Positions 1,416 to 61,379 of a stretch of 64,000 nucleotides of DNA are shown here, piece after piece. The DNA is from Paramacrobiotus metropolitanus (Eukaryota > Tardigrada > Eutardigrada > Parachela > Macrobiotidae). The DNA is taken from contig NW_026570269.1 in assembly GCF_019649055.1 (NCBI RefSeq), forward strand, positions 806,001-870,000, read 5' to 3'. A program made the position numbers and the translations under genes. Position 1 is the first letter of the stretch, and each line of letters begins with the position of its first letter. The notes beneath the pieces were generated by a model that was not told the DNA's origin, ran no database searches, and saw only the letters and a list, made by a program, of their open reading frames with translations.

Positions 1416-1802
1416 TTAGTGCTTCTTCGTCTGAACGATTGTGACGGTACTGTCAGGGATCTTATACTGCTGATCAAAATCCGCAGGGATGGGCATGTTC
1501 AGTTGGGCTGCCAGCTGAAGCATTTCCTCGCGGTTTCTAATGGCTTTCTCACGAGCAGCAGCAGCTTCACGTGCAGGACGATGTTTGTCTTCATATTCCT
1601 TCAGACGCTGTTCTTTTTTCTCCAGTCGACGATTACGATAGAAACCATAACCTAATCCAGCAATCAGTGCAGTCCATCGCGCCACGCGGATCGCAGGGGA
1701 AATCGCAGCGGGAGGCAAAAGGGGTTTTGGTGGAGGTTTCGTCGGAGGTTTCTGGGTAATTATCGCGGTACGCCGCGCCAAGCTCATGCCTTCCTCCGAC
1801 AT
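1416..1802 (-). CDS. ATP5ME: mitochondrial ATP synthase subunit e
   Basis: This encodes a protein of about 128 residues. Its central stretch (ISPAIRVARWTALIAGLGYG followed by a basic, Glu/Lys-rich helix) matches the small membrane subunit e of F1Fo-ATP synthase. Subunit e is a single-pass inner-membrane protein that supports dimer formation and cristae shape. One hydrophobic segment (residues about 45-60) is followed by a charged coiled-coil-like helix, as in the family. The protein is longer than the roughly 70 residues usual in vertebrates: there is a Pro/Lys-rich N-terminal extension of about 35 residues and a C-terminal extension. I chose the ATG at 1802 because an AG acceptor-like site (gtatacag) lies just upstream, suggesting a 5' UTR intron; an in-frame ATG at 1817 is the alternative. 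Family assignment is by motif recognition only. Confidence 0.75.
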   Translation of the reverse strand: MSEEGMSLARRTAIITQKPPTKPPPKPLLPPAAISPAIRVARWTALIAGLGYGFYRNRRLEKKEQRLKEYEDKHRPAREAAAAREKAIRNREEMLQLAAQLNMPIPADFDQQYKIPDSTVTIVQTKKH

Positions 1803-4800: not shown

Positions 4801-6739
4801 GTCAGATGGTACTTGATTAATTTTACTATGTCATGCACCTTATGGTTAATGACCATCTGGAGAACGCTTCGTGGATCTCGAGTATGTGAGATCAGTCGAT
4901 CGGTTGTGGGTGTGAATGTTTTATTGTAATGGACCACTGTTTAAAATTATCGGGAATTCCCTTAATTGGGTAGAAATGCATGTTTGCGTGCATTCAACCG
5001 GTTTAAATTTAAAACGAGTAATCGTTTTACGCCTGCTGGTTTAACTAGCCAGGTCTCTACAAAGTTTCATGAATGGTACGTTACAGTACTGCTTTTTGTG
5101 TCTGTCTGCAGACTCTGCACTCGTAATCGTACGGTGTATGTTTTGTTTTGTGGTTTCCTGATCGCTGTACAGTTACTGTAGTGGCTACTTATTGCAGCAG
5201 TTTGTAACTTTGTATATTACATACGGTATATTGTAGTGGTATATATCAGGAAGATTATGTTTTGAAAAATTTATTTTTACAGGGCTCCGCATAATTGATT
5301 TTTATCGCACGTACGGCTTGCAGCTTTAAAATTACAAATAATAATCTTGAAAGTGTACTCCAGTGTTGCATGAGTATTAATTTGAACTAACCAAACTACA
5401 GAATATTTAAATTTTTCATTAATCCTCATTTTACGCTTTCAGCAGAGGCGGATTGTACATACACGCGCAGTTGAAAATTTTTTTTAAAGTATCACATTAC
5501 TTAAGAGAGAGTGCTGGAGCCTGGAGCTTGTGGTGTTGATCCCGGTGTGTTTTGCTTAGGCTGGCAGTTTGTGCACGATCTGTCAATAGTGTGAGAGGCA
5601 CTGCAGATATATTGGGCCTTCCCTGCGGTGCCGTCCTCGTTGCGTATCCCCGATTTTTATCGCGAATACCGTTGCGTTTTATGGACGATCTCTTCACTTG
5701 TGATCTCTTCGGCAAAGCGCATCGCTAAATCCGGGATGAAACCAGATACAATTGGTGATATTTGTTAATCGGGAGGTGCTAGCAATAGGTTGATGCGGCT
5801 CTTAATCCGATGGATAATGATTACCGAGATCCTTAACAACTGATAATCGACGATCGGTTGGACGACGCCTGCCAAGTGACGAGCATTCCGCACGGTTTAG
5901 GCTATGCACGGTATGATGAGAAATATATTTCGCACTGTTTCTGTTCGTCGACCAGTTTAGCGGGTTATTTATTGTGTGTTGAGCTTGTTCACGCGTAGCG
6001 ATGGTTTTAAATTGATGAAGAGGAAAAAGTTGGCCTGATGCTATGAGAAGAACGCAGGAAATTGATATCTTTCATTCATTTTTTTGTGTGTGAAGTCAGT
6101 ACTGCAATGGATAATTTGCACAGAATACTAACATTGTCCTCGACTGATTTCGGCGGTATTTTTGAGTGCGTTTCCATACGTGCCGCTCGAGTGCGCGAAC
6201 ACTACAGTCTGTAGTAATTGTTTGCTGTGGACTACAACAAAAGTTTTAAAAATGGAAAACGCTTGGACTTTTCGAAGCTTTACAAATATTGGAAATGACA
6301 TTTTAAAATGTTAGTCGAAAAGAGCATTCTTGTAAAAAGTTAATACTTTTACCACCGCTTGATATTTTGGTGGTCCTTTAGTTTGGCCATGATTTTTGTA
6401 TTTACATAACTGTTGGATCTGCGAATAATTTTAAACGGTAAGACTATAGTATGTATAAATTATCTGCAATGTACGCCACCCGGGATTTTTGCTGCTAACT
6501 TCAGTAGTGCTGGTTAAGAACGAATGTGATTGGTGTTGCGTATGGTCAGATTGGGGAAAATGCTTATAGGGCACTTAAAGAACTTTCAAAATCAATAATT
6601 TTCACATTAATCAATAGCGGCTTCTTTGACAGCGCTTATTATTCCATATCAAATAACCAGCCGTTCCTGTTGCTTTTGCAGTTCTCGTTGTTGATCGGTT
6701 GTGTTTGGTTTCGACAGGTTTTAAAGCACGACCTTCGCC
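1803..6739. other. long intergenic region, no supported gene
   Basis: Nearly 5 kb without a coding region I can support. The open frames present are short, lack recognisable motifs and are not linked by convincing splice sites. The 3' part (about 5490-6739) is slightly richer in G+C and probably holds the promoter and 5' UTR exons of the galactosyltransferase; an AG acceptor-like site (tcgacag near 6719) just before its start codon fits a 5' UTR intron. Confidence 0.4.
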
Positions 6740-24900: not shown

Positions 24901-27900
24901 GGATGAGATTCGAGAAAGCATGGCAGGCGCGAACACACAGAAGGAGGAAGTGACGGTACTACGTGCGGACTTGGAAGCGGAAAAGGTCAAATTGCAACAG
25001 CGGGAGCAGCTGATCGCCAAAGAACTGCAAGATGTACTCCCCATGTTAGAAGCGGCTAAGCAGTCCGTAACAGCCATTAAAACAACCGATCTCAGTGAAA
25101 TTAAATCACTTCGAGCGCCACCGGCGGTTATCCATAATATCTTGGAAGGTGTGTTGAAGCTGTTTGGAAACAAGGATACATCATGGTCTGGAATGCGCGC
25201 GTAGGTCGCTTCAGGATCTTTATCACGAAATTTGTAGGGGTTTGGTGTTTCAACAGTACTTTGCTCCAGGTTTCTTAGCCCGACGATTAAAGAGGAAATC
25301 GTGCACTTTAACGCCGACAAGGTGTCCAAGGAGCACCTTAAGCTAACGCAGCAGCTGCTCGAGAAATATCGAACTTCCTTCGAAGAGGAAACAGCTAAAA
25401 GGGCCTCCGCGGCTGCAGCGCCATTGGCCGCTTGGGTGCGCGCTTGTTGTCGCTATGCCGAAGTTCATGAGAAGATTGCTCCGCTGGCCCAGGAAAAACG
25501 AAAATTAGAAAGGTCAGATTATGGACTTTGGAAACTTGCCAGATATACTGTATATAGGTTTTCAGATATTGCTTTAGAACTTTCATAAACCATCCGGTGA
25601 TCACGTTTAAGTGCCACAAGTTGTAGTCAAGTGTCTTGTTCGGTATCTGCTGTTATTGTATGTCGTTAACTGGAATAATTTCCGCTAAGCGAAAATCAAA
25701 GTTTTTTAGCGGTCAGCCGAACTAGTCTTTTTTAATGTAACAATTATTCTAGCTGGTAAAGCATAATTGCTTACTTGTAGTTATTAATGAATTAATTTTT
25801 GGCTCTAGAGTGGAAGCGTGCGACATACCTAGCATAAACCTCGAAAACTTATAATAATACCGTAGTTTCTTTAAATTTTATTATTGATGGATCCCGGTAC
25901 CCCTGTTGCAGTACAATCGAAATGCACGCAAAAAGGGTCACTAGCGCGGATAAGGATTTGGGCAACCTGAGCACCCGGATCGACATGCTGCAAGCCAGAT
26001 TTCAGCAACTGACGGAAGAGGCTGCGTTCATGAAGCTGGAACTGAACCGTTTGACAGAGCGCCTCAAAGTAGCGGAATTTCTCGTGGAGAAGCTGGAAAG
26101 CGAATACTCGCGGTGGTCAAGTCAGGTACATCACCGCTCTGCTGGATATTGTTTTTTTTTTCACTTTTTGCTTTTAAACATTTCAGTTGAAAAATTATGC
26201 CGAAGCCGCAAAAGCTGTTCAAAACAACGCCCTTATTGCCGCCGGTTTTATCGTTTACTTGGCATCCTGCAGCGAAGACGAGCGTTTGGCTTATGTAAAT
26301 TCCTGGAAAGACAACTTAAAGTACGATAATTTTTTAGATAAATAGATTTGGAAATTTGGCTCGGCTTATCAGTTGCATCTGAATTTATAATCGGAAATAC
26401 TATTATGCCGCTGATCCACAAGAAGGAAGAAAGGGTCTGTGAATTATATACTTTCCACACAGTCATGTTAACGGAAGTTGTGCTTTCGTTGATGTCTCAT
26501 ACAGTAGTTTAAACTGGAACAGGCAATGTCATCAGCATGCTGCTTTAATGGCCTTGGTTTTAACTTAAAGTGAAAAAGTTTTGAATGGCTTTAATTGTTT
26601 TGTTTAGAGTGGAGTCTTTTGACTTGGCTGATCATTTGACAACAGAGACAACGCGCCTAGAATGGCGTACGCAGGGTTTGGCGGCGGATACGCTATCTGT
26701 GGAGAACGCTGTTATCCTCCAGTGCGCTCTATCAACCTGTTTGATTGTCGATCCGACCGGAAATATTCTGGTCTGGCTCAAAGCATCACTGAAATCAAAG
26801 AAGTATTTTAACCTTCTTACTTGTTAGTATTGTTGCATCTTCAGATTATTTCATCAAACAGTTTTTCGAATAATTTAGCGCGGAGGTGGTGGACCAAGAG
26901 GATGCCAACTTTCAGTCGGCTGTGGAGATGGCCGTCCGTTTTGGTAAATCACTGATCGTTGAGGTGGCTGATGCTGTGGACGGGTTTCTGGTGGCACTGC
27001 TGCGCCGTGACCTTATAAAGCAGGGAAGTCGAATGCAGGTGGAAATGGGCGATAAATTAATTGATTATCATCCGCAATTCCGCTTGTATCTCATTTCCCG
27101 CAATCCTTCGATTGAATCACAACTGCATCCACAAGTAAGTAACTGTTTATGTTGCTTTTTTAGGATATCTTTAGTGCTCAGGATTGCTGTACTTTGAGGG
27201 TTGCTAAAATTAAAGCTTTACATTTCATTTTGATTTGCAGATTGCATCGTTAATCAACGTCGTCAGTTTTACGGCTACTCGCGCCGGCTTAGCCAATCAG
27301 CTGTTGAGTCTCGTGATCGAAAGCAAGCTGCCGCAAGTTGAACAGCGCCGTCGCGCTTTGGTCCAAGAGCAGGAGTCGCTTCGCGTCCAACTAACAGAAC
27401 TGGAAAACGCTCTGCTGTTAGAATTGTCCAACAGCCAAGGGAATATTCTTGAAAATACTGAATTGCGGGAATCTTTGGCAAAGACGAAATCCTCGTCGGA
27501 TACTGTTGAGAAAAATCTTAACGAATCCAAGAAAATTAAGGAGACGCTCGACCGCGATCAGGCGATCTTCTCCGTACTGGCTACAAAATGTTGCAGTATT
27601 TATTTCGCTCTGCAACACCTGCACCAACTGAACGACTTGTATCGGTTCAGTTTGCAGACCTTTATCGACATTTTCCGTAAAGCTGTGGAGAATTTGGCCA
27701 AAAACGAAGAAGTGAAGGATCAGCTGCAGAAATTCTGTGCGGTGGCATTTTACCAAGTCATTCATTACGTCTATCATCACGTCGCACGCGCGGTTTTTAA
27801 GAAAGACCGGCTGACCTTTCTTTTGCTTTTGATCAAATCTGTGCGACCGGAACTGATTAAGAACGAAGAGTGGGATTTTCTTCTGTCGCTTAAAACTAGA

Positions 27901-30900
27901 GCGTCTTTTGCTACGGATCAAGCGGTAAATGCGCCTTGGTTAGAGAAGGATAAACAGGGTATGTTAGCGGAAGTTGTAAGAAGGTTACCGGGGGTACGGG
28001 ACGCCTTGGATCTGCAAGACGCGACCGGTTGGAGCAAATTCATGGCACATTCGCACTGTGAGACAGCGCTTCCGGCTGGGGCAAAACTGACACCGTTCCA
28101 ACAGGTGTTGATCATCGCCGTCCTGCGACCCGATCGAATGATCAGTGTCCTGACAGGATTTGTGGGGAAAGGGCTGAAGCTTCCAGATCTGGCGGCGGAT
28201 ACGACATTGAAAACAGTTTTTGGGGAAAGCAAAGAAACTATACCGATTCTCATTCTGGTTTCCGCTGGTTCTGATCCGTCACAAGAAATTCTCGGCTTAG
28301 CACAAGAACGAAATGTTCAGTGCCAACAGGTAATAAAAACGCTAGATCGTTGTAAAAATTACTTGTTGCATCAATCATGTCGATTGAGTGAACGAATTTT
28401 GGTTCAGTAAGTGCATGTTCCCGCAAAAGTTACGACGTCCATTTTTTGAAATACAGATAGTGTTAGAACATTGGGTTTCCCATCCTCTAAATCTTTGGAA
28501 GTACTGAATGTTTTTTACGCAATTTGAACAGTTCGCAATGGGCCACAAAGAGGATGAAAACGCAGCCGATGCGATTAAAGAAGCAGCAAAAAAGGGATTT
28601 TGGTTATACCTGAAGAATCTGCATTTGTTGCCGACATTTTTCAACCGAATACTAAAGGAGGTTAAGGACGCTGGTCAGCCGTCTCCATCTTTCCGTTTAT
28701 GGATAACAACAGAAGCGATTAGCAATATCCCATCACTCTTGCTGGAAACATCGCTCAAGTGTGTTTACGAAGGTTAGTAAACTACGAAATTTATAAGTAC
28801 TCAAAATTCCCAGTTGGTCGTTAGTAAAACGGTGGACTCACAAGTCAGTGTGGAGTAATTTAGTAACTGGAGTTTGGCGCTTGACTGATGACATTACGTA
28901 CAAATACAATACCACTTAAACACTGCAAATGGGGTATTGTCAGGGCTGATGTCTTTCAAGTCTATTGGTAGTGTAGTTAAGTCTCATAAACGTTCACCGA
29001 ATTTTGTAGTTCATGTTGTGTATATATTTGCAGTTTTGTTGATACCGTATTTGACTTCTTTCTTTTAATTTCTAGCACCTCCCGGCGTTAAGCAAAACAT
29101 TCTGCGTTCTATCAAAGAATCGTCCGAATTGTTCAAACCTCTTTCCGGGTCTTCATCCGTTCGTCCGGGTTTGATTTTGTATTGGCTCAACGCCATTCTC
29201 CAGGAACGTCGCAACTACCTGCCGGTGGGGTGGACCAAGTTTTACGAATTCACCAGTAGTGATTTAAACGCTGCACTTCGGATAATTGGCAAATACGGAA
29301 AGGGTGCAAAAAGTGGTGGCTACTTGGAAGAGTACATTCGCGGCTTATTGGAGATTGTCATTTATGGCGGCCGTGTTGATTCGCCATGCGATTACAACAT
29401 GCTGTCCTCATTCGTTCGCAGCTATTTTTCGGGGGATTCCCTATCGAAAGATGATCTGGGAAGAGAACTGAGTGGAAAATTTCAGCCCAGTTTGAAATCT
29501 CTGGGCGATTTTGACGGCTACGTGCAGACCTCTCTGCCGGAAATAGATGAGCCGGAACTGTTAGGATTACCGGCAAATATCGACGCATCGCATCAGGCTA
29601 ACGAAGGCTTGGCGGTGGTGAAAGATTTGCAGCTACTGCAACATTTCAAAGAAGCAAAGCTCACTGAAATTGGGGACGATTCTGTAGAGGCTGTCAACAT
29701 GTTATTGAATGTCGTCCAGAAGACGAAAGAGGTAATACGCTGCACGAGAAAGCAAGGCAAATTAGTGACGGTTGTAAACCGCCAGTTTCATTTATTTGCT
29801 GCTAGAGGGTCTAAAGCTAAACAAAATTTTGCCGGCAATCGATTAATTCGTTTTGAACTCGACGTGAATTCATTTGAAGATCAATTATCATCTTGTTTCG
29901 TACCGTAATACACCAATATAAAGGTAACGGTTGCTTTGTGGTAGAAACTGGAAAGGTTTGTGTCCGACCATGGAGAAATGGAGCAAATCAGCGCAGTGGC
30001 ATGGTACTTTTATTACGAAGGCATTTTCGCCTTGAATTTGTCTGCCTACATGCAAGATCAGCTGATGACCATCGCTTCGCATGGGCGTAACCTGGACGCC
30101 CTGCCGAAAGAAGTTCAAGCCACCGCCAAGAGCATTTTGCACCACGAAGTACTGCATTTTATTATAACTGCCATGTTCTGCACCGTGTTATCCCTACCTT
30201 TATAATTATTTAGACTCCGGAATCTTGGCAAAATTTGTGGTGCGGCCCTGCAGAACCCGCAGCGTATAACCGCGCGGTGGAAAGGTTATCTCAAGGCGTT
30301 GCAGAAGGAATGGCAAAAGTTCGGCGAAACAATCTGTATGCCAGTCCGATTGATGTTCGCGAACTATTCAATCCTGAAAACCTTATTGCGTCACTGCGGC
30401 AACTTGCCAGCAGGTACTATATATTTTCAATCATTCCTTTCCTTGCATGCAGGTCGCTCTGTTTCTGCAAATGTTTCCCTCGTTTTCACGTCACAGTGCT
30501 TCATTTTTTAACGAGAAGCGAAAATTGGTATGAGTATGACTTATCCAGCTTTAACTCTACCATTTTGCAGAGAAACCGGTAGTCCCGCGGAAACATTAGT
30601 ATTTTATAACGAGTGGTCACTCCGTGCGCTAAAATCCGTTTCTACACAACCGCGGTTAGCGGCTTGCATTTGGAAGGTGCGCTGTTCGATGGGAAGATAT
30701 TGACTGAATGCCAATACAGCTCACCGGGAATCAATCTGGTGACACCTTGTCACGTGGCCTGGTTACCAGAAGTACGGATAACGGATAACTGAGCGAGGCA
30801 ATCAAAGCAGCTCTATCTATTGTTTTTTAGAAAATTGTGCCAAAGCCGGATAAAAGCGAAGTCCGGCTACCGGTGTTCAACACGCCTGCCCGCGATAAAT

Positions 30901-31433: not shown

Positions 31434-33028
31434 TCAGTTTGTGATAATTTGATCGTGCTTCTGGATGTGCGGAGCCTGTTTATCGGTGATCGGTCTCAAA
31501 GCATTAGGAAGCGTCAATCCAGATGGCCCGATGAAAAGATAGTTGGACGTCATGGCGCCCTGTGTGAACTCCAGATTGAACTCCGCCACGGAAACGCCGC
31601 GTTCGGCCACATGAGGAGCAAACATGGCCGCCGGGTACACAACGGAAGAAGTGCCGACGACCAGGCACAGATCACAGGCATCCAGTTCGGAGTATACCGC
31701 ATCTAACACAGCTGTGTCGAGCGGTTCACCAAACCACACTACATGCGGTCGGAGCAAGCCTTCGCATTCGCCGCAGCGCGGCAAATCTTTCTCCGGGATT
31801 TTATCCACAGGCTGGTCCGGATCAGGGAGACTAAAGAAAAAATTTATAAAAAAGCCTTTATATGACCATTTCTGTTGGATACAAAACGGTCACAAATCAG
31901 ACAGCAATCAGAGGCAAGAAATGTCTAATCTTTAAACTAACAGCGGTCCAAAAAAAAGATGAAATACGCTACAAAATGTGATTACTCTAATACTCTTTGT
32001 TTCTTACGTAGGATTTACGAGGGCAGGTGTGATGGGGTACGGTAACATTTTCTTCCACGGTTCCACATTTTATACACTGTGTTTTGAAGAGGCTGCCATG
32101 GATTTCGATAACGTTCTTGGAGCCCGCTCTTTGATGCAGACCGTCAATATTCTGCGTTACAATGGTCAATTTACGTTTGTCGCTTTTGAGGATCTTTTCG
32201 GCCGCTGCTAGTGCAACATGTCCCTAAAATGCCAAACAAGAATTTTCTACTCGGATTTGGGTGCGCAAAATTTAATTCAAAATTTAATTTAATTGATAAT
32301 GTGGCTCTGTTGATCATAAAATTCCATGTCCGAATCAGTCCCTCGAGAAAATTGCTGCGAAACTTCTCGCGTCTCTAACAACGCTCACCAAAATGGACCC
32401 ATTCACTACTTTTGCATAGGTACGACACTCCGAAACTTATGAAAAGATTTCTGAGCTCTAATCCTATGCCGCCACGCAAATTTCACAGGAAACATACACG
32501 TAAAAGTGAAAACAACAACAAACTAAAAAAGTTAAAGCGAGTTAAACGAAAAAATTCCCAGTCATTTTAATTTCTGAAACTACGATACGATATCACCATT
32601 CACGGCACTTTACTTACGGGATTGGGCGCGGATTTGAGAACTGTCTCCCGTCTATAGGCATAAAACTGCCACACCAGCGAAGGGTTGTCAACGAAGGCCG
32701 GGTACGTGGCCAACTGCGTGACGTCGTATTTCCCCCAGAAACCACCCGCTCCCCGAAACGTCGAGATCCCGCTCTCCGCGCTGATACCCGCCCCCGTTAA
32801 CACCACAACTCTCTTGGCACGCGCCAGTTCCTGCTGGAAGGCCTGCAGTTGGGCGTTCTGGTTGCTAATGTTGAGATCATCGTGCAGGGAGCTCATAAAG
32901 AGCCCCGCCATTGTCTGCGGAATCTGGAAGGTCTCCGGCGCAATGCGGGCCGGCAGGATGGGCTGGCCGCCGCGTCTGGAGGCCCGAAAACCCGACAACA
33001 GCGTCCTGAAGGAGCGAGGCGCGATCAT
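31434..33028 (-). CDS. SIRT5: SIRT5-type NAD-dependent lysine deacylase, mitochondrial
   Basis: Exons (minus) 33028-32618, 32223-32008 and 31811-31434 join in phase 0 to about 334 residues. An Arg/Ser-rich N terminus of about 45 residues looks like a mitochondrial presequence. Sirtuin motifs follow: [20 protein letters not shown] (NAD binding), [17 protein letters not shown] with the catalytic His, zinc ligands CIKC and CGEC, and [17 protein letters not shown]. The class III signature Tyr-x-x-Arg that gives SIRT5 its preference for succinyl/malonyl/glutaryl-lysine is kept in FYAYRRE. The second Cys pair is C-x2-C rather than the wider spacing in human SIRT5. The start of exon 3 is inferred from phase (donor after SY, acceptor before PVDKIPEK). 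The gene is divergent from DXO and convergent with DYNC2H1. Confidence 0.93.
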
Positions 33029-46594: not shown

Positions 46595-49500
46595 ATGGGA
46601 TCTGACGCGCCGTACTGCTTGGCCATCGATATTGGCAGTTCCAGCATCAAAGCGGCTGCGGTGTATGACGGCGGCAGTTTTCGAAACTTTGAAATCGGAT
46701 TCAACAACAATCCCACCGAGTTTCCGACGTATTTAGCAGTCACTCATTCTGGCGCTGTCCTCATTGGCGAAGAGGCGAAAGACCATTCCACAATTGAACC
46801 TCATGAAACTTTGACCAATATTAAATACCTGTTCAACCGTAAACTGGAAAGGATGACCCTTCCGTTTCCGGTTGACAGGTGTGGCGGTCAAGTCAGTGTA
46901 CGCGTGCAACATCACAACCAACGACTGAATGTGCCGGCGCACGCCATATACGGCGCCTTTCTGGCAGCGGCAAAAGAGCGCGTCGAAGCCATCCTGGATC
47001 AACAGTGCTTAACCGCGGTGGTGACTATTCCTTCCGATTTTTCAAACGAACAAAAAATAGCCGTGGAAGGTGCTTCACGGTTAGCGGGATTTACGCAGGT
47101 GGAAACCATGAACGAAGTCATTGCGGCCGCTAGTTATTTCTACCATATGCGCAACCTGCAGAACGAACAGTTTGTAATTGTCTGCAATTTCGGGGCATCC
47201 TCGTCGGAAATAGCTCTGGTTCAGATCTGTAATAACAACGATTTTGCTGTCCTGCGACGACAGACCTTGCTGGATATTACCGGCGACGCACTGGACGAAA
47301 AATTATTAATGCACTGCTTGCGATCCATGAACACTAGTGCCATACACTCAGATAGAAGCAGTGCAGAATCTTTAAAACAGAATTTGAGGTTACAATGCGA
47401 AGCAGCCAGAATTTCACTGAGCAACAAAAGGGAAGCATCCGTGGACGTTGGTAGTGTAATGGGCACGGAGAGCTCTTCCAACGTACCAGTGGATCGTGAA
47501 TTCTTCGAGAGCATGTCGGATTTGTGGACGGCCTTGAGAAACACTTTAAGAGACATATTGCAGCTGGCGGTGTCGAAAACGAAACGACCTATCCATATCA
47601 TCTTAACCGGTGGTGTCAGTCGGACGCCAAAGATTAGAAGTGTTATTGAGGAATGTTCTCAAGGCATGAACGTGCAGATAACAACTAACGTGAACCTGTG
47701 TAATAATGCGGTCGTGTACGGTGGCGCTCTGCGGGCAAAAGCGGCTTTCCCGGAAGAATTTTGTTATAGCGTAAATCGAGGACCGGAAGAACTCAATCTC
47801 CAAGATCGAATCTGGAGAACTCTCGAATCCGCACCTCTTGCACCGGAGTCCGGCTTCGGGGGTTTGGAACAGCTGAGTCCGACACCATCTCGTCGGTCTG
47901 GTGTTTCCAGTCGAAGCACATCGTCAAACAATACCAGTTCCAGTTCAATATCCAGGGCCTCCCAACAGCCTGATATTTTCCGGTTTATTGGAAACGAATT
48001 ACTGACTACAGAACGAAAATATGTCCAAGATTTATATTTCATAGTTTCCGTAAGTTTTCGAAGAAGTCACGCTGCAATAGGGTTTATTGTCAGTACCATA
48101 ATGAAAGCTAATAGTCATCTTTTAGGAATGCATGCCGTACTTTCAACAGAATGAGCTGCTTGCTCCCTCTGTTATTGGAAGGCGACACTTGATTTTTGCA
48201 AATTTGGAAGACATTTATCTTTTTCATCGCATATTCTTAACGGACATGGAATCCTGCGAACTTACTCCTTCCACCATTGGACATCTTTTTTGTCGATATG
48301 TAAGCCTTCGCCTAACGGATTATGTAAAGTTGGAATTTGTTTTACAACTTATACTAGTTTTAAGAATTCCAAGTATGGTATTCCTAGAGTTCTGTTTTAG
48401 CTTTCAAAAGTGCGTTCTAATTGCCATTTAACTGTATGCGTCTTATTTGTACTGCGGGCTCGGTAACGACATTCCGAAAATTTTAGCATTTTCCATACTA
48501 GTAGTACTAGTACTGCAGTCTGACAAAGTGATATTCCAGGAACAAGAATTTGAGAAGCATGCGCTATTCTGTCGAAAACAAGCAGAATCTACCCGGAAAG
48601 GATTGATTGCGGCGGCGAATCGGTTCTTCGAGGTACTTACACTGAAACGGAGGCAGACAGATTGTCCACATGTTGTATTTGTTATGACCTTTGGGAATGT
48701 ATCGTAAATACGAATTTGCAGTCGCGTAAACAGAAAGCGATGTGGGTACAGTACTCATAAGTCATAGTTGTGTTGTCAATTCAGGAACTGTATGGTTAAT
48801 TCAATCTAACCTGGTTAGCTAACCAAGTACGAAATCGGAATTATTTTTTAGTTTTTTTAAGTTGCATGTGAAATTTTCATACTTTTTACAGGACCAGAAA
48901 TTCGTTTTCTCACGAGAGGATGGCGGGTTAGGCACATGTTTAACAAAACCTTTTCAACGGTTGGTGAAGTATAAAGAGTTTCTCAAAAGGCTGATTACAA
49001 AATGTCTTGAAGCTGGGCTCAATGAGGATCTTCCTGTATTACAAGTACGTAGGCGATACTAAAAACCATTTCAGCCTGTGTATCCAAGACTGTACTGATA
49101 ATTGAAATGGTGAATAAAGAATAACAAACCATGTTATTGAATTTTGTATTGAGTAGGCGGCTTTGGAGAAAATGGAATTCTTTTTGCACCATGGAGACGA
49201 TCTCGCTCATCAAGATTTAATTGTGGATCATGCCGGTGTTGCCCTTAATCAGCAAGGAAGGCTCTTGCGCCAAAATGAAATGTTAGTAGTGGTCGGTCGC
49301 CGAAGCCGGCTTATGCAGCGGCCGCGGCGCCGAGTAGTGTTTCTTTTCGAAAACATGATCATCCTTACAAAATGGAAAGCCGGCAATGAGGACAGGTGTT
49401 TGAAATACAAAAGACATATCAGAGTAAGTCAAGCTGGCTTCCGCTGATAAAAGCCAAACAATGCTTGTGAACGTCTAACGCAGTTGGGGTACAGGCTGCA

Positions 49501-49819
49501 CAGCATAATTAGTTCGTTCGCTAAGTCTGGCTTTTAATTGGCAAAATAATTTTACATACCGTTTTTCACTTTTCAGACTGATGAGATCGGTTTAGTGGAG
49601 GATCCGAACGCATCGAACGCATCGGTCTTTCAAGTTTTCATTCGAACCACTCGAGATGAAAACATTTTCGAGTGCGAAGCGAAAGACGAAGAAACAAAAC
49701 GCTCATGGGTGAAGGATATTAGAAGGATCTTAGAAATACAAGCCACCCACCATGCGCCACAGAGACTCCAAAGAAGGCCAGTTCCCAAGTTAATAGGTTG
49801 GCTCCCCAAATTTTCATAA
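46595..49819 (+). CDS. Hsp70-ATPase / DH-PH (RhoGEF) fusion protein
   Basis: Exons 46595-48049, 48126-48299, 48519-48632, 48892-49044, 49157-49423 and 49577-49819 join in phase 0 at every junction to about 801 residues. Residues 1-385 form an Hsp70/actin-type ATPase domain: phosphate-1 loop AIDIGSSSIKAA, VVTIPSDFSNEQK, adenosine motif LTGGVSRTPKIR. The phosphate-2 loop is degenerate (NFGASSSEIA instead of DLGGGT). There is no substrate-binding domain; a Ser-rich linker (386-460) leads in the same uninterrupted exon into a Dbl-homology domain (GNELLTTERKYVQDL, IFANLEDIYLFHRIFL, CLTKPFQRLVKYKEFLKRLI), then a PH domain with RRRVVFLFENMIILTKWK. DH-PH modules exchange GDP for GTP on Rho GTPases. 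Start chosen as the ATG directly before the ATPase domain. The end may extend through exons near 50039-50409. Confidence 0.85.
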
Positions 49820-51892: not shown

Positions 51893-53640
51893 ATGGCCGA
51901 GGAGTTCGCTGTTGGTATTGATCTTGGCACTTCCAACAGCTGCGTCGTTGTGTATCGCTTTGATCGTCTGGAAACGATTGCCGAGCCCAGTAGTGGACTA
52001 CAAATTATCCCTAGCTGCATTGGATTTGACCAGACAAGTGGATGTTTTACCGAACTATTATACGGATTTGGGCAAAAACGCATCAAACTATTGAGCCGAA
52101 AAATTGTATATACAATGTAAAACGCATAATCGGCAAACAGTTCACCGATAGCGATGTGAGGATAGAACAAGGTCTGATGTCGTATGATATCGTCAACGAA
52201 GATGGTTATCCTCGCATTCGTGTTCAAGAACACGGACAACCCGTAGATTATTCCCCAGAGGAAATCAGCTCAATTTTGCTGACGTACTTGAAACGCACTA
52301 CCGAAGAGTTTTTGGGAAGCAAAGTCAAAAGCGCTGTCATCACTGTACCAGCTAACTTCAATGATGCTCAACGGAAAGCAACTAAATTAGCGGCCGAAAT
52401 GGCTGGTCTACAGGTGTTGCAGATCTTGAATGAGCCGACGGCAGCCGCTATGGCATACGGAGCGGATTTACAAGGTAAACAAAATTTATTAGTCTTCGAT
52501 TTCGGTGGCGGAACTCTGGATGTGTCCATATTGGAAGTTGAGAATGCAAACCGTTTCCGAGTTCGAGCCACAGCCGGCAATATGCGGCTAGGCGGAGAGG
52601 ACATCGATCAGCGGATAGTGCAGCACATGCTGAAAGTTATCAAGAGCCAGTACGGAATCGATGCAAGTCGAGATGAAAAACTGAAAATCAGGCTGAAACA
52701 CGAGTGCGAGGCCGTTAAGAGGCAGCTCAGCTCCGTAGCTTCCAAAAGAATTGCAATTGCAAATTTATTTGGCACCAAAAGTTTTATTGCTAATTTTACT
52801 CGCCAAGAGCTGGAAGATATCTGCAGTGACTTATTTGAAAAAACGCTTGAACCCGTTCGGGAAGCTCTCAAAATGGCAAAAATGACACAAAAAGACATAG
52901 CTCATGTGATTTTAATCGGCGGTAGCAGCTATATTCCAAAGGTCCGAGAACTGTTGACAGCTTACTTTCCCGACGTGCCGCTACGAAAGAGCATCGACCC
53001 CAGTCAAGCAGTGGCAAAAGGTGCCGCGTTGTTGGCCAGCTCGATAAGTCTAGGTGGAACCAACCTGGATTTGAAACTAGAAGATGTGACCCCGTTAACG
53101 CTCGGGGTCAATGTTTTCGGCGGTTTTATGAGCGCACTGATACCTAAAGGGACCCGATTGCCGGCCGAAAACGAACAGAATTACACAACTTTTAAAAATG
53201 ATCAAGAATACATTGATATTGACGTCTATGAAGGAGAAGATTCTCGGGCCAAGTCAAACCATTATCTAGGGAATTTCAAGTTTTCCGGTATACGACCCGC
53301 ACCGAAAGGGGAACCGTGTATCACAATTCATTTCAAGGTAGATACCAGTGGGATATTGATGGTCACCGCTTCGGAGGGCGCGAACAAGATGTCGATGACC
53401 TTTAGGGAACACACTCAAGGAGGAGCAGGTTCTAATCCACCCGACGATCGCAACACTCAGCAAGCTAAAAAAAGACTGCAAGACGCGCTGGATAGAGCCA
53501 AGCGGGATGTTGCACGTGATGAGCAGCGGTTGATCCGCGTAGAATGTTTAGTCATGTGGTTCGAAGCGACGAAAAATATCGGCTTCCCTCTGATGCACTA
53601 CGAGAGATGGGGACGCATTTTACAGGCTATTCTTTCATGA
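51893..53640 (+). CDS. Hsp70-family chaperone without lid, one frame break
   Basis: Single-exon gene, about 582 residues if one break is allowed. It is the most canonical Hsp70 of the cluster: phosphate-1 GIDLGTSNSCVVVY, NEPTAAAMAYGAD, phosphate-2 VFDFGGGTLDVSIL, adenosine motif LIGGSSYIPKVREL, and a substrate-binding beta domain (TPLTLGVNVFGG, ITIHFKVDTSGILMVTAS). The C-terminal helical lid is reduced to a short charged segment and there is no EEVD tail. Hsp70s bind and refold client proteins using ATP. The frame shifts by -1 near the A5 run at 52074-52078: upstream reads TELLYGFGQK, downstream THQTIEPKNCIYNVKRIIG, both matching the family. No in-phase intron explains it. AATAAA at 53810-53815 is a likely polyadenylation signal. 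Confidence 0.8.
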
Positions 53641-54127
53641 CCTAGCTAGTAATTATTTTGCAATCAAAATGTTAATATTGAACCCCTATTCGTAGTTTTT
53701 TCCGCCGCAAAGTTAAAATTTCGCTCATTTTGCACCTTTTTTTGTAATACTTACTGAAATAAGTGCCGTAGTTCATAGAAATACCAAAGTACAGTTGATT
53801 TCAAAGATTAATAAATAGTTCGATATTGTAACGTGTAATAAAAATCAAAGTGTTCTTCGGCGCGAGCAGTGTGTTCATATTTTGTCGCGATCGCAAATAA
53901 TAGAGTTAAACGCTTCATCAGTCGAAAGGTATAATATTTGCGTGGGTATGATATGATAATATGCTATCTCATTGATAAAGGGCACAAAAAGCATGTACGA
54001 CAAGTGACAAGTGCTTGTGCTGTCTCGCGCGCAACCGCTTCCCCAAAACTGTGCACGGCGTATTTCCAGTCAATTACCCGCCGAGTAACCTATTAAGGTA
54101 CCCCCTCAAGAACTGTTTAATTTGAAA

Positions 54128-55863
54128 ATGTCAGGTGAAAATAGTGATAATGCTTCTTTTTCTGGCGAAAGGCGATCAAGTCACGTTAAACTTTCGAAAA
54201 CAGCTGCCATCGGCATTGACTTGGGCAGTTTGAATGTTACAGTCGCCATTATCGATCAAGCCGGAGGACCCACCATTATCGACACCAGACAAGGTGGCAC
54301 GAAGCTTCCTGCTTTCGTAGCTCATCTGAACACAGAAGTTTTTATTGGGGAAGATGCGCAAGCCAGCGTGCTGACAGAACCCGACCATGTGCTTTTTTGC
54401 ATGAAACGCTTCCTGGGAATCAGTTCCAGTGAGTCTAATGAGCTAATCCAACGTTATCGGTTTCCATTTGCAATTACAGCCGAAGAAAATTATGTTTGTT
54501 TTTTCGGAGCACACAAGATAGATGCCCGCAAAGCTTTGCGCATTTTATTGAAAGAAACGGCCGCTACCATACGAGAAAAACTTCAAGTCGAGGGACCGAT
54601 CCTATTTCCGGTTTGGATCACCATTCCAGATGCATTGCACACTGAAAACGAGCCAGCGAACACGGATGTTTGGAGCCTGGCAGAAAATACTCGGATACTA
54701 TTTTCTCGACTCATTCCCGAAACACGAGCAGCGTGTCGGGGAAGTCTGTCGCATATTAAAGGGGACACAGTGCTTGTTATCCATATTGGAGCAGCATTTT
54801 CCGGGGCGGCGTTGTACAAGATAGTTGGCAAAGACGTGCAAAAGATGCCTCTGAAAACTCTAGAGCAAATCGTTTGCGGAAACGATTTTGATAGGAGAAT
54901 TGTACGAGAATTCGCTACCATTATGGGAAAGGAAGTAGAGACCATGGATAAGCAGACGTATGAAATTCTTCGCAAACACGCCCAGGAAGCCAAAGTGAAA
55001 CTGAGTGCAAACAAAACCGCTTCTGTTTACATTAACGACCTGGCTGATCAACAACCTGCTCACCGGTTTACTTTCACACGAAGCACGTTTGAATTAATCT
55101 GCAGTGACCTCTTCGATCACTTTAGAGAAGGCCTACGACTGATTCACAACAATTTGCAAGACTTTTCCGACATAGCTCTGGTTGGCAGCAGTGCGCGGAT
55201 CCCAAAATTCAAGATATCGTTGTAGATATATTGGGAAAACGACCTAACGCTGCTGTTCTGGGCTACGCGGATATCGTTGCCGCCGAAGGAGCTGCCCTTT
55301 ACGCCCACGAGTATGATTTGGAACAACCTTACCCTTCATATCGGCCTGTAGACGCTCGAACGGATACGGAACCGGTTCAAAAATTAGAACAAAATAAGAG
55401 CCTGGAAGACAAAGGAAAGATTCAAGAAAGCGACAATCCTGTCGCCAGAAACGAATCCATTTCTGCTGAAGAAACTGAATATGACGATACAGAAAGTAAA
55501 AACCAAAATGATTGCTCTTACGAAAACCGTATTTCTTCACCAGCTGCTGACCAAATCATCCAGAAAATCACTATGGATATGCATCATGATTTGGGCGATT
55601 CTACGACAGGAACAACAGTAGACCTAAACACATACGGAAACGCCACGGGAGCCGAAACGATTTGCCTGAGCGATTCCGAAAAGAAAATTCACGACTCAGA
55701 TGGTCCATCATGTGTAACTGCTAAAGAAGTTGCTGTCACACAAGGCGTTCACTCCGAAAACACTCTAGAAGCGAATGTACCAGAATTGTGTGAAGAAGAT
55801 CAGGACGATGCCGCTGACACCAATGCGACTTTCTCGAGTGCAATCGAAATAACTGCGCTATAA
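54128..55863 (+). CDS. Hsp70-like ATPase with acidic tail, -1 frame break
   Basis: Single-exon gene. Residues 20-390 resemble the Hsp70 ATPase domain (phosphate-1 AIGIDLGSLNVTVAI, adenosine motif ALVGSSARIPK). The phosphate-2 loop reads IHIGAAFSGAAL rather than DLGGGT, so ATP hydrolysis is doubtful. The zero frame stops at 55225. The -1 frame, entered at the heptamer CCCAAAA (55201-55207), continues the family pattern IQDIVVDILGKRPNAAVLGYADIVAAEGAALYA and then an Asp/Glu/Ser/Thr-rich tail of about 180 residues to 55863, 578 residues in all. No substrate-binding domain is seen. The break may be a lost base in the C3A4 run, a real mutation, or programmed -1 frameshifting. A shorter 365-residue product would result without a shift. 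Confidence 0.75.
55201..55207 (+). promoter_or_regulatory. possible -1 ribosomal frameshift site CCCAAAA
   Basis: The zero frame reads ATC CCA AAA TTC, so the heptamer C CCA AAA fits the X XXY YYZ rule for simultaneous -1 slippage. Slippage gives exactly the frame that continues the conserved Hsp70 pattern. A downstream stimulatory structure was not established. An assembly error of one base gives the same picture. Confidence 0.3.
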
Positions 55864-56970
55864 TACTCGTATATCTGGTCTATTGGAGCATTTAAAATTA
55901 ATAATTTGAAGAAATTTGCAACCTGCATAAACCTTACGCGTAAGCGAGTTCTAGTTACGAGATACCGGTATATCGCCTCCTGGCTGTACAGGCATGCGAG
56001 CTGCAAATTTTGCAATGTTGCAGTATGTACTTAGTTCTATTCGCTTACACTATTAGCGTCGGTTAAAGAGAAAGTGTAACAAGAATTGCGAAAAAGATGA
56101 TAAATCTAATAGAAACATCAGAAGTTTAATTATCACGCAGTGTAACAGCGACCGAATTTTTGTTAGATCTGGTAGCCGGCCATTGCGTATGATTACACAC
56201 AAATCATTTAGTGTACTGTATATCTATATGTTTAATAATAATCGAGTTCAGCCGTTTAACAATGCCAGAAATTCCCAGAATGTTAGAAAGAGCAAACTAC
56301 TCTTCGTTTTGTAAAACCCTTTACATGACAAATGCACAGGTAACGGTGATTATCCATGATCCCGCTCTTCCGTTTTCGTGCTGCAGTTATCGGGCCAAAG
56401 GTTAAGTGCGTCTCTGCATGAATAACTGCAGCAGTATAACTCCCTTGAAATTGCGAATGCTTGGCGTTTGTGTTTGTAATCTCACCGTTTGTTTACGATT
56501 CATTGAGCAAACTGCAAAGCCCAGTGCCGTATTTTACTGGAGAGTCATTTCATTTTCCAAATATTTGCAGTCAGTATGGGGCTTTTGCAAATCTTCAACC
56601 GTAAACTCATAAGGTGAATGCTTATGCCTGCCACAATAGCAGGTGTTATCAGTTAGATAAGGAAACATTGCTGGATAGTGAGCCATGTACGGTATATGAA
56701 CATAACTCCACTACAACCTGAACGCGAAACACATTCAGCCAGTCAAAAATTCACATATTGCTTAGTGCCCTAGCACACGTTTCGATATAATATTTTCGAA
56801 AAAAAGTTTTTCTTATTTCCGAAAAATTGTTTGTTGTCACTACTGAATGTTTGATGAAAAGTTGGAAAATCGTCAAATTAAAGGTAAAATAATTAAATCA
56901 TTCTTAGTGAGAATTCGGTTATATGTGCTACTTTAAATGAATGGTTCTCTGTTTTCTTGTGTACAGTAAA
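55864..56970. other. spacer between two Hsp70-like genes
   Basis: About 1.1 kb, AT-rich, no supported coding region. The end holds an acceptor-like site (cttgtgtacag, near 56966) just before the next start codon, suggesting a 5' UTR intron of the downstream gene. Confidence 0.45.
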
Positions 56971-59106
56971 ATGAGTACAAGGAAGAGTCCAGCCATCGGT
57001 ATACACCTAGGAACCAAATGTATCCGTTGCGCAGTATACATAAAAGGGCAGTACATCATTCTTCATAATCCGTGGGGAAGTGATAGCGTTCCTTTTTATT
57101 ACGCTTTGAATAATGATGAGCAGAATGATTATTTACTGGGCGAAGATGCGCAGAATTTCTCTTTTATTGCACCGGATTGTTGTGTTTTTGATCTGGGCAA
57201 ATTTGTCAACGAATTATCCGCAGAGAAGTTTGTCCAGCAACAAAGAAAGTATATGTTGCCATTTGACGTTGATCGTGACAAAAACGGGGACATTGGCGTT
57301 AAATTGAACCGACCAAATCACGACTTTCCAGAGTTTTGGCCCATGCACCGAATTTTAAAGAGGATTTTCGCCATGGTCAAAGATTTCGCTCGATACAACA
57401 CGGATGTCATTACACAGGAAATAACCGATGTAGTTTTTTCCGTTCCACCAAATTGGTCATATCTACAAGACGAGTTTATAAAACATGTCGCGCAGCTAGC
57501 CGGATTAAACGCTTCCACAGTCAGCAGAAATCTGGCATGTTTTATTGGCTGGAGTACAGAACGCAGAGTGGTTCATGGAAATTACTTAACACTGAATATT
57601 GGCGCAGCGCAGACGCAGATTTCAGTTTTTCGAATCGCTCATCAACGAATCCACAAATTATATGAAAGCGTACCGATAGAAATCGGTGGGGAGGATTTTG
57701 ATTGCCAGATGGTGCGCCATTGCTGTTTTCGCTTTGCCCAGGAATATGGAATCGATCTACTCCGAGGTCACCAGAATCTGTCAGCCATTGAAAGACTACG
57801 CTTCCACTGCGAAAAAGCCAAACGAGAACTGACCGCGGCGAAAACAACAGTTATCCACATCCCCAACATTGTTAACAGCATAGACTTCGCGTGGAAAGTG
57901 ACAAGGGAAGATTTGGAGAGTATCTGCAGCGAAGAAATCGCCAAAGTCGCCAGTTATGTTGACAACGAAGTAAACAAGATTGACCTGCGCGACATTTACG
58001 AGGTGGTGCCGTTTGGAGGAACAACACGGATGCCTTGTATTCAGCAACAGATACGGGAAATTTTTCGTTCTTCCGTAATTAATCAAGCCGTTCGGTCGTA
58101 CGCGGACGCAGCTTCATTGTACGGGGCGGCCAATGTTGCCGCTGCACCGGAGTTTTATGCGTACTTAAACGATCGCGACAATGAGAAGCTGTTTCATAGG
58201 CGGACAACGTACGTCAGTGATGTGTACGAACCGGAAGTGGTCACTGACCAGAAGTCCAAAATTCCAATCGTCGTCACTCGCGTTCAGAACGAGTTGATCA
58301 GGGAAGTCGAACCGGGTAATCGACTGCGGCCCAACTGGGCAGCGACGGTGCAAGTCGATAATGGAATCGGAGATTTCAACGATAAAACAATAAAATCAGT
58401 GTCCGATGATAAACCACTTCCGCCTATTAGAACCGTTGACGTGGAAAATGTCCCGCCGGCGCCGGTAGTGAATGAGCGACCACGATCGCTTCACAATGAG
58501 GAAGCTCAAAAAGTGACCCAACCGCCCGCTGCCGAACGTCAGTCCTCCTCGGTCGAAAATAAATTGCCACCAAGAGAGCAACTGACAGAAAGGTTTTCTG
58601 CGGAAGCCGACATCGCATACATCGAGGGCGACACGGAAGACAACTTCCGGGCGATGGTAAAAGTCTTCGAACGGAATCGTGAAGCTTACAAAAAAGAGCG
58701 ATATCTCGCTTTCTTGGATTTAAAAAGTCGGCATGAGTTTTTTGCGACAAGGATCGAAGCGGGACTAATCGAAGGCATACTTGTTAAAAGGACGTTTAAC
58801 GTTTTTCACGATAAGCACGCTCTCTCCCGAGTGCAGTTCAACACCGGGTACGAAGCGAAGGAATTTAATTTCTGGACACAACATTACAAAGATATCGAAC
58901 ATACGGAAGATGAACCAATGGAGGCTGACCAGCGCAATGGATATCCTGATGGTAGAAACAAGCAGCGTCGAGCGGCAAATGACAATGACCTGGGTGGCAG
59001 GTCAGAAAATGGCAATGGCAAACCGAGGACGGTGAAGAAGACAAAACCAAAGAGTTTTCTCGATACAATCCTAGCATGTGGAAGAGGAAACGGGGACGAC
59101 GATTAA
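56971..59106 (+). CDS. divergent Hsp70-like protein with novel C-terminal half
   Basis: Single-exon gene of about 711 residues from the ATG at 56971, chosen because an AG acceptor-like site lies just before it; an in-frame ATG at 56941 is the alternative. Residues 1-390 follow the Hsp70 ATPase pattern (AIGIHLGTKCIRCAVY, LNIGAAQTQISVF, EIGGEDFDCQMV, VPFGGTTRMPCIQQQI, ASLYGAANVAA), with both phosphate loops degenerate. There is no recognisable substrate-binding domain. A Pro-rich linker (about 480-545) leads to a folded-looking segment (about 550-660) containing ATRIEAGLIEGILVKRTFNV, then a basic Gly/Asn-rich end. Part of that segment faintly recalls the DIS3-type cold-shock region, a weak guess. 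AATAAA at about 59190 is a likely polyadenylation signal. Confidence 0.82.
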   Translation: MSTRKSPAIGIHLGTKCIRCAVYIKGQYIILHNPWGSDSVPFYYALNNDEQNDYLLGEDAQNFSFIAPDCCVFDLGKFVNELSAEKFVQQQRKYMLPFDVDRDKNGDIGVKLNRPNHDFPEFWPMHRILKRIFAMVKDFARYNTDVITQEITDVVFSVPPNWSYLQDEFIKHVAQLAGLNASTVSRNLACFIGWSTERRVVHGNYLTLNIGAAQTQISVFRIAHQRIHKLYESVPIEIGGEDFDCQMVRHCCFRFAQEYGIDLLRGHQNLSAIERLRFHCEKAKRELTAAKTTVIHIPNIVNSIDFAWKVTREDLESICSEEIAKVASYVDNEVNKIDLRDIYEVVPFGGTTRMPCIQQQIREIFRSSVINQAVRSYADAASLYGAANVAAAPEFYAYLNDRDNEKLFHRRTTYVSDVYEPEVVTDQKSKIPIVVTRVQNELIREVEPGNRLRPNWAATVQVDNGIGDFNDKTIKSVSDDKPLPPIRTVDVENVPPAPVVNERPRSLHNEEAQKVTQPPAAERQSSSVENKLPPREQLTERFSAEADIAYIEGDTEDNFRAMVKVFERNREAYKKERYLAFLDLKSRHEFFATRIEAGLIEGILVKRTFNVFHDKHALSRVQFNTGYEAKEFNFWTQHYKDIEHTEDEPMEADQRNGYPDGRNKQRRAANDNDLGGRSENGNGKPRTVKKTKPKSFLDTILACGRGNGDDD

Positions 59107-60456
59107 ACGAACCCGAAACAAGCAATCTTTAACATACTTCTCTTTATATACAACAGTTGATTGGTATCCGTTCAGAATTTGTTAAGGAAAATAAAGTATC
59201 GTATGCTGAACAAAGCATGAATTTCAGTGTCGGGATTTTTCTACATTTCATACTTTAGATAAACAGAATACTTATTAATACAAACTTATTATTATAGTTT
59301 GACCATTGGTGTAGCTTGTAAGCGTTCCAGATATTGTTTTTGTCTGACAATCAATGTGTTTGTAGGCCATTTTGTAGCGTATTCTGTACATAACTTGCAA
59401 AACTGTTTTAACAAAGTTTTTATTAAATTAGCAGATTATTTGAAGTGGAGTATCATGTGCATGACTTTCTGCACACTAGTACTGCCCCCGTACGATATCA
59501 TTATGTTTATTAATTAAAAATCTGGAAACTCAGCTCCCCTGTACACAGTTTTAGCTAAAATTGTACATCGATCTGACTTATATAGATGTATATAAATAGG
59601 GAGAGTATTTTATTCAACTGCCTTAGGGAGTGTACTAAGTGAAGTGTCATTTTTAAATGTTGTTTTGTTGCTCACAAAATACGGAAATACAAAACCTTTC
59701 AGTTCTCTCATCAGTTTCTCGAAACTCCCCCCAAGAGAAGTAAGTACTCCGCACCCGTATGTAAACATCAGGCTTCCTTGTTCTGCAGGTTCGACTTAAT
59801 CTTTCTTGAGCAAAATCGACGGCGATTATTACCTTTGCAGCCGTACATACTTCTATTCCATGCATTTTTACCTACTGAATTACGAACTTCTACTAACCAT
59901 GGTAAGAGGAAATTCTGTGAGTACTATGTAGTATTGTGTAGTTCTGTGAACTTAAATAAGCTGTAACAGAAGAGCTACTATAGGCTTGTTTGCGAACCTA
60001 ATACCATGTGTATGTGTTTTTATCAGTATGATATCAAACGTAGCTTCGAGTACCTTCGTACTCGCAGATTGTTGCCAAATCAAGATAATTATAATTATAA
60101 GTTAACTGTCGACATCCCATCTTAATCTGTCCATTCTGTGTTCTGTGCTCGTACGTACAGTACGTATGTATTCAGTTTATGAAATCTTCGTACCGGCCGT
60201 TTTCTTACCGTGATAATTTCAGTTAATGCTAAGAGTGCTTTGGCAAATCGTTTATCTAATAATATTACGGGAATTGCAAATCTGCTGCTCGTAATTATTA
60301 ACAGCGGCACAGAATTGCTTCATATTATATATTTACGGAAGTGTAGAAGATAGTGTACAGTAGAAGTAGTATATAGATATAGTGATGTGACTCGTCTCGT
60401 ACCGTACAATTTTATTAACCGAAAACATTGTTGCAATTTATCCCGACATTAATATT
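59107..60456. other. intergenic, no gene seen
   Basis: About 1.35 kb of AT-rich sequence between the last Hsp70-like gene and the dioxygenase gene. It contains the probable 3' end signal of the former near 59190 and presumably the promoter of the latter. No supported coding or RNA gene. Confidence 0.45.
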
Positions 60457-61379
60457 ATGGAATCATTCAAAGTGACAGCCGAAGATATCCTCACGTTTGA
60501 GCAAGACGGCGCAGTTTGTTTGCGAAATGTTTTCAGTCCCGAGTGGGTGCGCAAAGTGGAAAGCGGTATTGCTAAGAACCTGAAGCATCCCAGTGGTTAT
60601 TCCGAATTTCTAAAGGATTCCTCCACCAGTCCTATTGTAATTTACAACGAAGGAATATATTTTAACGATTACTTCAACTGGAAAAACATTCCCGAATTTC
60701 AAGATTATGTATATCATTCCCCGGCTGCCGACGTGGTACAACAGCTGTTGAAAACCGCAACAGTAACATTCTATCACGAACATGTTTTAATAAAGGAGCA
60801 AGGTGCAGCAAAAGAAACACCGTGGCACCATGATCAGAGCTATTATCCCTTCGACGGCGAGCAGGTAAGTGCTGTACTGTATTTGTAACATAATCATAAT
60901 TTTATACGCGTAGTAACACTTTGTACAGATACACATTATTACTAAAGGCGTGCTCAATCTGGATGCCGGTTGATCCAGTCGCCTTACCGACCACATTGCA
61001 ATTTATTCGCGGATCGCATAAATGGGGATGGTTTTATCCACGAAAGTTTGCTACAACCTTAAATTACTCTCTAACGTCAACAGTCCTGGACCATGAATAT
61101 CGGGATGTGCCAGACATAGCCAACATCCCAGAAAGCGAGATCCTACAGTGGACACTGCAGCCTGGAGACTGCATCGTTTTCCACATGAAGACCCTGCACG
61201 GGGCAAAAGGCAATATGACTGCGAATAATCGCCGTATATTGTCCACTCGCTGGTTTGGAGATGATGTGCGGATGGCGCAACGGCCGTGGGTGCCATCGCC
61301 ACCCGTAACCGGCAAGCTTAAAGTGGGCGATCCACCTAACACTGATCCAGATCTATTCCCGGTTGTCAAGCCTATCTAA
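60457..61379 (+). CDS. phytanoyl-CoA dioxygenase (PhyH) family protein
   Basis: Exons 60457-60864 and 60948-61379 join in phase 0 to 279 residues. This is a compact PhyH-type Fe(II)/2-oxoglutarate dioxygenase. The iron ligands His-x-Asp lie in TPWHHDQSYYPF, the distal His in KTLHGAKGNMT, and the 2-oxoglutarate-binding Arg in NRRILSTRWFGDD. A double-stranded beta-helix core is implied by TTLQFIRGSHKWGW and LQPGDCIVFHMKTLHG. No mitochondrial or peroxisomal targeting sequence is evident at the N terminus, and the C terminus (VVKPI) is not a peroxisomal signal. The substrate is unknown: family members hydroxylate phytanoyl-CoA and many small molecules. The acceptor actaaag is chosen by phase. The gene converges on the degenerate oxygenase-like gene. 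Confidence 0.88.

Follow-up and report, generated by a model that had tools for sequence, protein, structure and literature searches.

The window analysed here, a stretch of 64,000 nucleotides corresponding to positions 806001 to 870000 of contig C49, carries on its forward strand a gene predicted to encode an Hsp70-type nucleotide-binding domain (NBD) joined to the Dbl-homology (DH) and PH domains of a RhoGEF. It is one of four Hsp70-like genes that stand in tandem on one strand, and matches to other protein families were noted elsewhere in the window (Table 1). Genome-wide searches covered 169.8 Mb in 533 contigs. A CAHS protein used as query gave 18 matches (best E = 1.7e-51, identity up to 66%), which suggests a eutardigrade, as CAHS proteins are known from eutardigrades; a lipocalin family search aimed at tardigrade SAHS proteins gave two matches. 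The frame overlap near 52030–52117 in the Hsp70-like gene at 51893–53637 may reflect a pseudogene or a sequence error.

Table 1. Features of the window, numbered from its first nucleotide
Feature	Position	Strand	Evidence or remark
ATP synthase E chain	1419-1823	-	
Galactosyltransferase	9102-9455	+	
Dynein heavy chain gene pieces	27214-29905 and others	+	AAA_9, AAA_lid_11 (Pfam)
SIR2	31437-31889	-	
Exon 1	46595..48049	+	Hsp70-type NBD (about residues 8-384), Ser-rich linker and first DH helix; open frame and splice donor, Pfam, model and Foldseek
Pfam HSP70 match, residues 42-383	46718..47743	+	Pfam, alignment; substrate-binding domain absent
DH helix 1, FRFIGNELLTTERKYVQDLYFIVS	47978..48049	+	Frame continuous with NBD; intron 1 at its end
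Exon 2, DH	48126..48299	+	174 bp; length and boundaries identical to matching exon of C4 gene
Exon 3, DH	48540..48632	+	Gene model; intron comparison with C4
Exon 4, DH	48892..49044	+	Contains LTKPFQRLVKY motif
Exon 5, DH end and PH start	49157..49423	+	HGDDL versus Asn-Asp in relatives
Exon 6, remaining PH and C terminus, TAA	49577..49819	+	Gene model; Pfam
Hsp70-like gene with substrate-binding domain	51893..53637	+	Frames 51893-52117 and 52030-53637 overlap (frame break)
Divergent Hsp70-like gene	54089..55860	+	NBD frame 54089-55222; overlapping frame 55126-55860 without Pfam match
Divergent Hsp70-like gene	56941..59103	+	NBD and about 320 aa without further Pfam domain above cut-off
PhyH	60391-60885	+	

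Gene model and domains of the predicted fusion protein

Splicing of the six exons of the gene at 46595–49819 gave a protein of 794 amino acids ending at a TAA stop, with all five introns bounded by GT-AG and lying in phase 0, in agreement with the six-exon, entirely phase 0 model that had been proposed in a sequence-only reading of this DNA. That reading had also placed the Hsp70 NBD, a Ser-rich linker and the first DH helix within a single exon, and this was borne out by a 584-codon open frame that contains exon 1 and passes from the NBD through the linker into DH helix 1 without interruption. Methionines in the translated exon 1 occur only at residues 1, 87, 172, 185, 239, 245, 289, 307, and 358; neither the linker nor DH helix 1 contains one, and a separate DH-PH gene could therefore not start within exon 1. 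The 1601 bp of DNA running from NBD to DH was found as a single copy in the genome-wide search.

In a codon log-odds comparison, the annotated frame scored best of six in seven of eight pieces (NBD, DH helix 1, and exons 2–6), with a margin of only 0.01 for exon 2. The low-complexity linker was ambiguous, with the annotated frame at −0.119 and the best frame at −0.097, and its frame is thus unsupported by codon bias. The test as a whole is weak because intron 2 also reached 0.026 in one frame and because the training set consisted mostly of Hsp70-like frames from the same genome. Taken on the sequence, the fused Hsp70-NBD/DH-PH protein is very probably real.

A domain search of the translated model, suggested as a check in the sequence-only reading, returned Pfam matches to HSP70 (residues 42–383, E = 4.3e-41), RhoGEF (residues 467–636, E = 1.3e-23), and SOS1_NGEF_PH (residues 655–765, E = 2.9e-21) in the 794-residue protein, which therefore contains the DH and then PH order of a Dbl-family RhoGEF. 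The HSP70 match stops at position 374 of the 599 positions of the profile; no Hsp70 substrate-binding domain was found in the protein by Pfam, and no match to the Hsp70 interdomain linker was seen after the NBD. NCBIfam gave only sub-cut-off matches to DnaK, HscA, MreB, and similar families. Sequence searches of the PDB matched exon 1 to the NBD of HSPA6 (E = 1.2e-29) and the DH-PH part to the N-terminal DH-PH of Trio (E = 3.8e-32) and to Dbs (E = 9.7e-26). An AlphaFold model of exon 1, built from an alignment of 24 sequences, had a mean pLDDT of 80, and a Foldseek search of the PDB with this model found Hsp70 NBDs as the best matches (7nqr, E = 4.9e-30, TM by target length 0.83). The actin-like NBD fold of Hsp70 is thus present in the exon 1 product according to Pfam, AlphaFold, and Foldseek. 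Residues 416–470 of the model had pLDDT values below 50, and the Ser-rich linker looks flexible in this prediction.

Hsp70 proteins use D10, K71, E175, D199, and a GGGT loop for ATP hydrolysis, whereas the DH domain contacts its GTPase through a Glu in CR1, a Lys in CR3, and an Asn in the last helix. Alignment of the window NBD shows that D10, G12, K71, E175, and the GG of the adenosine motif are kept and that D199N, GGGT to GASS, and D206E changes have occurred, so the full set of ATPase residues is not intact and the degenerate phosphate-2 loop noted previously is confirmed. Loss of D199 and of the GGGT loop makes ATP hydrolysis by this NBD doubtful. In the aligned DH domain, the CR1 Glu, the CR3 Lys, and the KPFQR/KY motif are kept, and the catalytic Asn is Asp.

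Probable parent genes and further Hsp70 joins in the genome

The closest DH-PH to that of the window was found in a gene near 2874 kb of contig C4, which may be puratrophin/PLEKHG4-like; Pfam analysis of four open frames upstream of this gene returned nothing that names its subfamily. Five intron positions, all in phase 0, are common to the C4 gene and the window DH-PH, as is one exon of an identical 174 bp. A tree of DH domains was constructed from 14 rows, comprising the window, a second fusion on contig C86 (below), 10 other DHs from the same genome, and two PDB sequences, with the rows from this genome drawn from 32 genome matches and the joined exons of the C4 gene. The window DH groups with Trio and with DHs from C4 and C28 (support 97/94), and this grouping together with the introns shared with C4 places the window DH-PH in the Trio/Dbs type. 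On the basis of these comparisons, the C4 gene is likely the source of the window DH-PH.

The window NBD belongs to a large Hsp70-like expansion: at least 88 HSP70 matches, grouped into 44 clusters, were found in the genome by a search in which 69 of 130 candidates were scored. A tree of NBDs was built from 27 rows, of which 26 were from the same genome, and in this tree the NBD of the frame starting at 52030 is sister to a group made up of the C86 fusion and the kinase fusions on C132, C150, and C392. The window NBD probably derives from the array of tandem Hsp70-like genes around it. Divergent Hsp70-like genes were also noted at positions 1010–3322 of a locus on C72 and 424–1842 of locus L038, with a long C-terminal extension or following frame in which no Pfam domain scored above cut-off. 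At positions 3113–6626 of a locus on C63, an Hsp70-like frame is directly followed by a frame with a ubiquitin domain at its end (3.9e-15); the two may form an Hsp70-ubiquitin-like fusion with an intron in between.

The second Hsp70-DH join lies on contig C86 (207000–216000, minus strand, locus 3067–4914), where matches to HSP70 (2.5e-94) and RhoGEF (2.8e-17) occupy a single intronless frame of 616 codons. Homology to Hsp70 reaches a Val-Thr that aligns with the DVT in its relative's interdomain linker, after which the DH begins, so the DH occupies the place of the substrate-binding domain. The frame ends in AATG/GTAAGT, a possible splice donor, and Pfam found no PH domain behind the DH in three downstream frame translations (671, 474, and 431 aa). 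AlphaFold gave a confident NBD and a DH of low confidence. Both active sites are altered, with D10H, K71S, and GGGT to GAQT in an NBD that keeps D199 and, in a DH that keeps the Glu, KI in place of the QR of CR3. The best PDB matches of the C86 DH were ARHGEF1 (E = 3.5e-19) and ARHGEF11 (1.4e-12), and in the DH tree it groups with ARHGEF1 and with genes on C66 and C10 (support 92/95). Its NBD groups with the window gene at 51893 and the C132, C150, and C392 kinase fusions (100/98).

A shared DH origin for the two fusions was rejected in the 14-row DH tree (p-AU 0.00015), as was a shared NBD origin in the 27-row NBD tree (p-AU 0.0024). Both results call for some caution, the former because the tree held 10 other DHs from this genome and two PDB sequences, the latter because the long branch of the window NBD joins a second long branch. 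A common origin of both Hsp70-DH fusions is rejected by these AU tests, and the fusion therefore seems to have arisen twice from different parents.

Six further loci were found in which a kinase lies N-terminal to an Hsp70 NBD (one each on C85, C392, and C150 and three on C132), some with broken frames. Single frames join the two domains on C85 (680 aa; Pkinase 2.8e-24, then HSP70 2.5e-89) and on C150 (450 aa; Pkinase 1e-24, then HSP70 3.4e-31). On C392, a 475-aa frame contains the kinase tail and the NBD, with the remainder of the kinase in other frames. Of the C132 loci, that at 291–294 kb has one frame with the kinase tail (Pkinase 0.0056, sub-cut-off) and the start of the NBD, that at 270–272 kb has kinase pieces extending up to the NBD frame, and that at 235–239 kb has kinase and NBD separated by one in-frame stop; some of the kinase-Hsp70 loci may be decayed copies. 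The kinase family is very large, with at least 146 matches in the genome (124 of 811 candidates scored), and the closest PDB sequences to the fusion kinases are MAP3K2 and MAP3K5. In the NBD tree, that of C85 clusters with four Hsp70s from C72 (100/100), whereas the NBDs of the other kinase fusions fall with the C86 group; despite these separate NBD groups, the kinases of C85 and the other fusions are alike (31–34% identity in two pieces). At positions 777–4425 of a locus on C96, an Hsp70-like gene is followed by same-strand kinase frames that may start at their own Met, and the two are regarded as neighbours.

The joins on C85, C392, C150, and C132 show that Hsp70 NBDs have come to lie beside signalling domains repeatedly in this genome. 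Placement differs by partner: an NBD lacking the substrate-binding half precedes the DH, whereas in the kinase joins the NBD comes second. Further fusions may exist, as the flanks of 23 of the 44 HSP70 clusters were inspected, two of these with a flank of only about 1 kb. The full GGGT loop is present in 10 of the 26 NBD rows from this genome; the 16 that have lost it comprise all seven RhoGEF- or kinase-fusion rows and nine rows with no known fusion of this kind, so its loss accompanies the fusions and is not special to them.

Proposed function and alternative explanations

An N-terminal autoinhibitory region often keeps Dbl-family RhoGEFs inactive. We propose that the window gene encodes a Trio/Dbs-type RhoGEF fronted by an Hsp70 NBD that would act as a nucleotide- or co-chaperone-responsive regulatory or docking module, a statement to which, as a whole and from sequence, a probability of roughly 0.45 is assigned. 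The DH-PH part would load a GTPase of the Rho family. Placed where DH-PH proteins carry N-terminal regulatory regions, the Hsp70 part would bind nucleotide, partners of Hsp70 (J-proteins, or the exchange factors BAG or Hsp110), or both. Such binding would release or localise the DH-PH, and the NBD would hydrolyse ATP poorly or not at all, as proposed from the lost phosphate-2 loop. The chaperone-like nucleotide switch suggested in the sequence-only reading stays an interpretation: the loss of D199 and GGGT makes hydrolysis doubtful, while D10, K71, and E175 are retained. A stress link, also suggested there, gained no support from the promoter: the best heat-shock element in the 600 bp upstream of the fusion gene matched 8 of 9 positions and was equalled in 30 of 200 shuffles, in contrast to the canonical Hsp70 gene on C2, for which the same test gave 9 of 9 positions with 2 of 200 shuffles as good.

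An artefact of gene modelling or assembly, in which adjacent Hsp70-like and DH-PH genes were merged into one, is very improbable. The linker is ambiguous by the codon test and a hidden upstream exon might splice into it, but no stop occurs from the NBD to DH helix 1, no Met is available for a separate DH start, the splice donor within the DH matches the place of that in the C4 gene, the junction is single-copy, and a second fusion in one frame exists on another contig. A real protein could still carry a passive NBD, if duplicated DH-PH exons came to use the promoter and start of an Hsp70-like gene and the NBD served as a leader or stabilising tag with no regulatory role. We consider this unlikely: the position of the NBD inside a same-strand cluster of Hsp70-like genes, its eroded ATP site and long branch, and the Ser-rich, apparently flexible linker all fit such a capture, but the NBD frame has stayed intact over about 390 codons, D10, K71, E175, and the adenosine GG have been kept despite deep divergence, and a second fusion was built from other parents.

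Exchange activity may be low or lacking altogether, given the Asp at the position of the catalytic Asn in the window and a CR3 without QR in C86. Both halves might thus be pseudo-enzymes, forming a scaffold that ties up Rho GTPases or co-chaperones of Hsp70 without exchange or ATPase activity, a quite unlikely arrangement that would agree with the Asn to Asp change in the window DH, with D199N and GASS in its NBD, and with D10H, K71S, and the changed CR3 of C86. Against it, the CR1 Glu and the KPFQR/KY motif are kept in the window DH, and Asp for Asn is a mild change at a position where some DH families use other residues. A regulated RhoGEF is favoured over these alternatives, of which passive capture and the scaffold are serious rivals, by the position of the NBD, by the C86 DH lying behind an interdomain-linker region, and by the repeated fusion.

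Judged from sequence, the join of Hsp70 NBD and RhoGEF appears to be genuine and an unusual means of coupling a chaperone module to signalling. A broader notion, which we regard as somewhat unlikely, is that the Hsp70 NBD came to serve in this animal lineage as a regulatory plug-in for signalling enzymes at large (RhoGEFs and kinases), added more than once, through which ATP level, unfolded-protein load, or co-chaperone availability would feed directly into Rho or kinase signalling. An Hsp70 ATPase fold at the regulatory position of a RhoGEF, apparently acquired twice from different parents within one genome, would directly connect the chaperone system with the control of Rho and actin at the protein level in animals known for drying and reviving. 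It also raises the testable question of whether an Hsp70 NBD that lacks a substrate-binding domain can have a regulatory role.

Comparison with known systems

No Hsp70-RhoGEF or Hsp70-kinase fusion protein was found described in the titles and abstract openings of the open-licence papers that the literature searches returned. The claim made from sequence alone that this architecture is undescribed is in keeping with that search, whereas the C86 gene means that it is not a one-off. What appears new is a Dbl RhoGEF with an Hsp70 NBD in the regulatory position, of which these searches gave no description. Expansion of HSP70 in tardigrades has been published, with 69 putative genes in Hypsibius exemplaris (PMC6652013) and a large expansion also in PMC5531438; RhoGEF or kinase fusions go unmentioned in the available portions of both reports. 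A 'rhogef domain containing protein' is within the ten most expressed of Richtersius, with no Hsp70 part mentioned in the available text (PMC6652013). According to the accessible part of another study, RhoGEF-related gene groups have repeatedly been lost in land-living animals, a trend opposite to the fusion in the window (PMC12804077).

The nearest published idea found is that of bacterial GTPase-centred conflict systems, in which, as far as the available text describes them, HSP70s without a peptide-binding part are used outside ordinary folding; these are separate genes neighbouring GTPases, and no RhoGEF fusion is mentioned in that text (PMC7159879).

Among individual proteins, the NBDs of HSPA6, Hsc70, and BiP have their fold and part of the active site in common with the window NBD, which differs in its lack of a substrate-binding domain, its lost phosphate-2 loop, and the DH-PH that follows. 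The C86 DH resembles those of the RGS-RhoGEFs ARHGEF1/11/12, from which the C86 gene differs by the Hsp70 NBD in front, a changed CR3, and no PH found downstream. Trio and Dbs have Sec14/spectrin-type N-terminal regions. The window protein has the DH-PH tandem in common with the Trio/Dbs/Kalirin group, and is set apart by an Asp at the catalytic Asn and by an N-terminal Hsp70 NBD in contrast to the Sec14/spectrin-type regions of Trio and Dbs.
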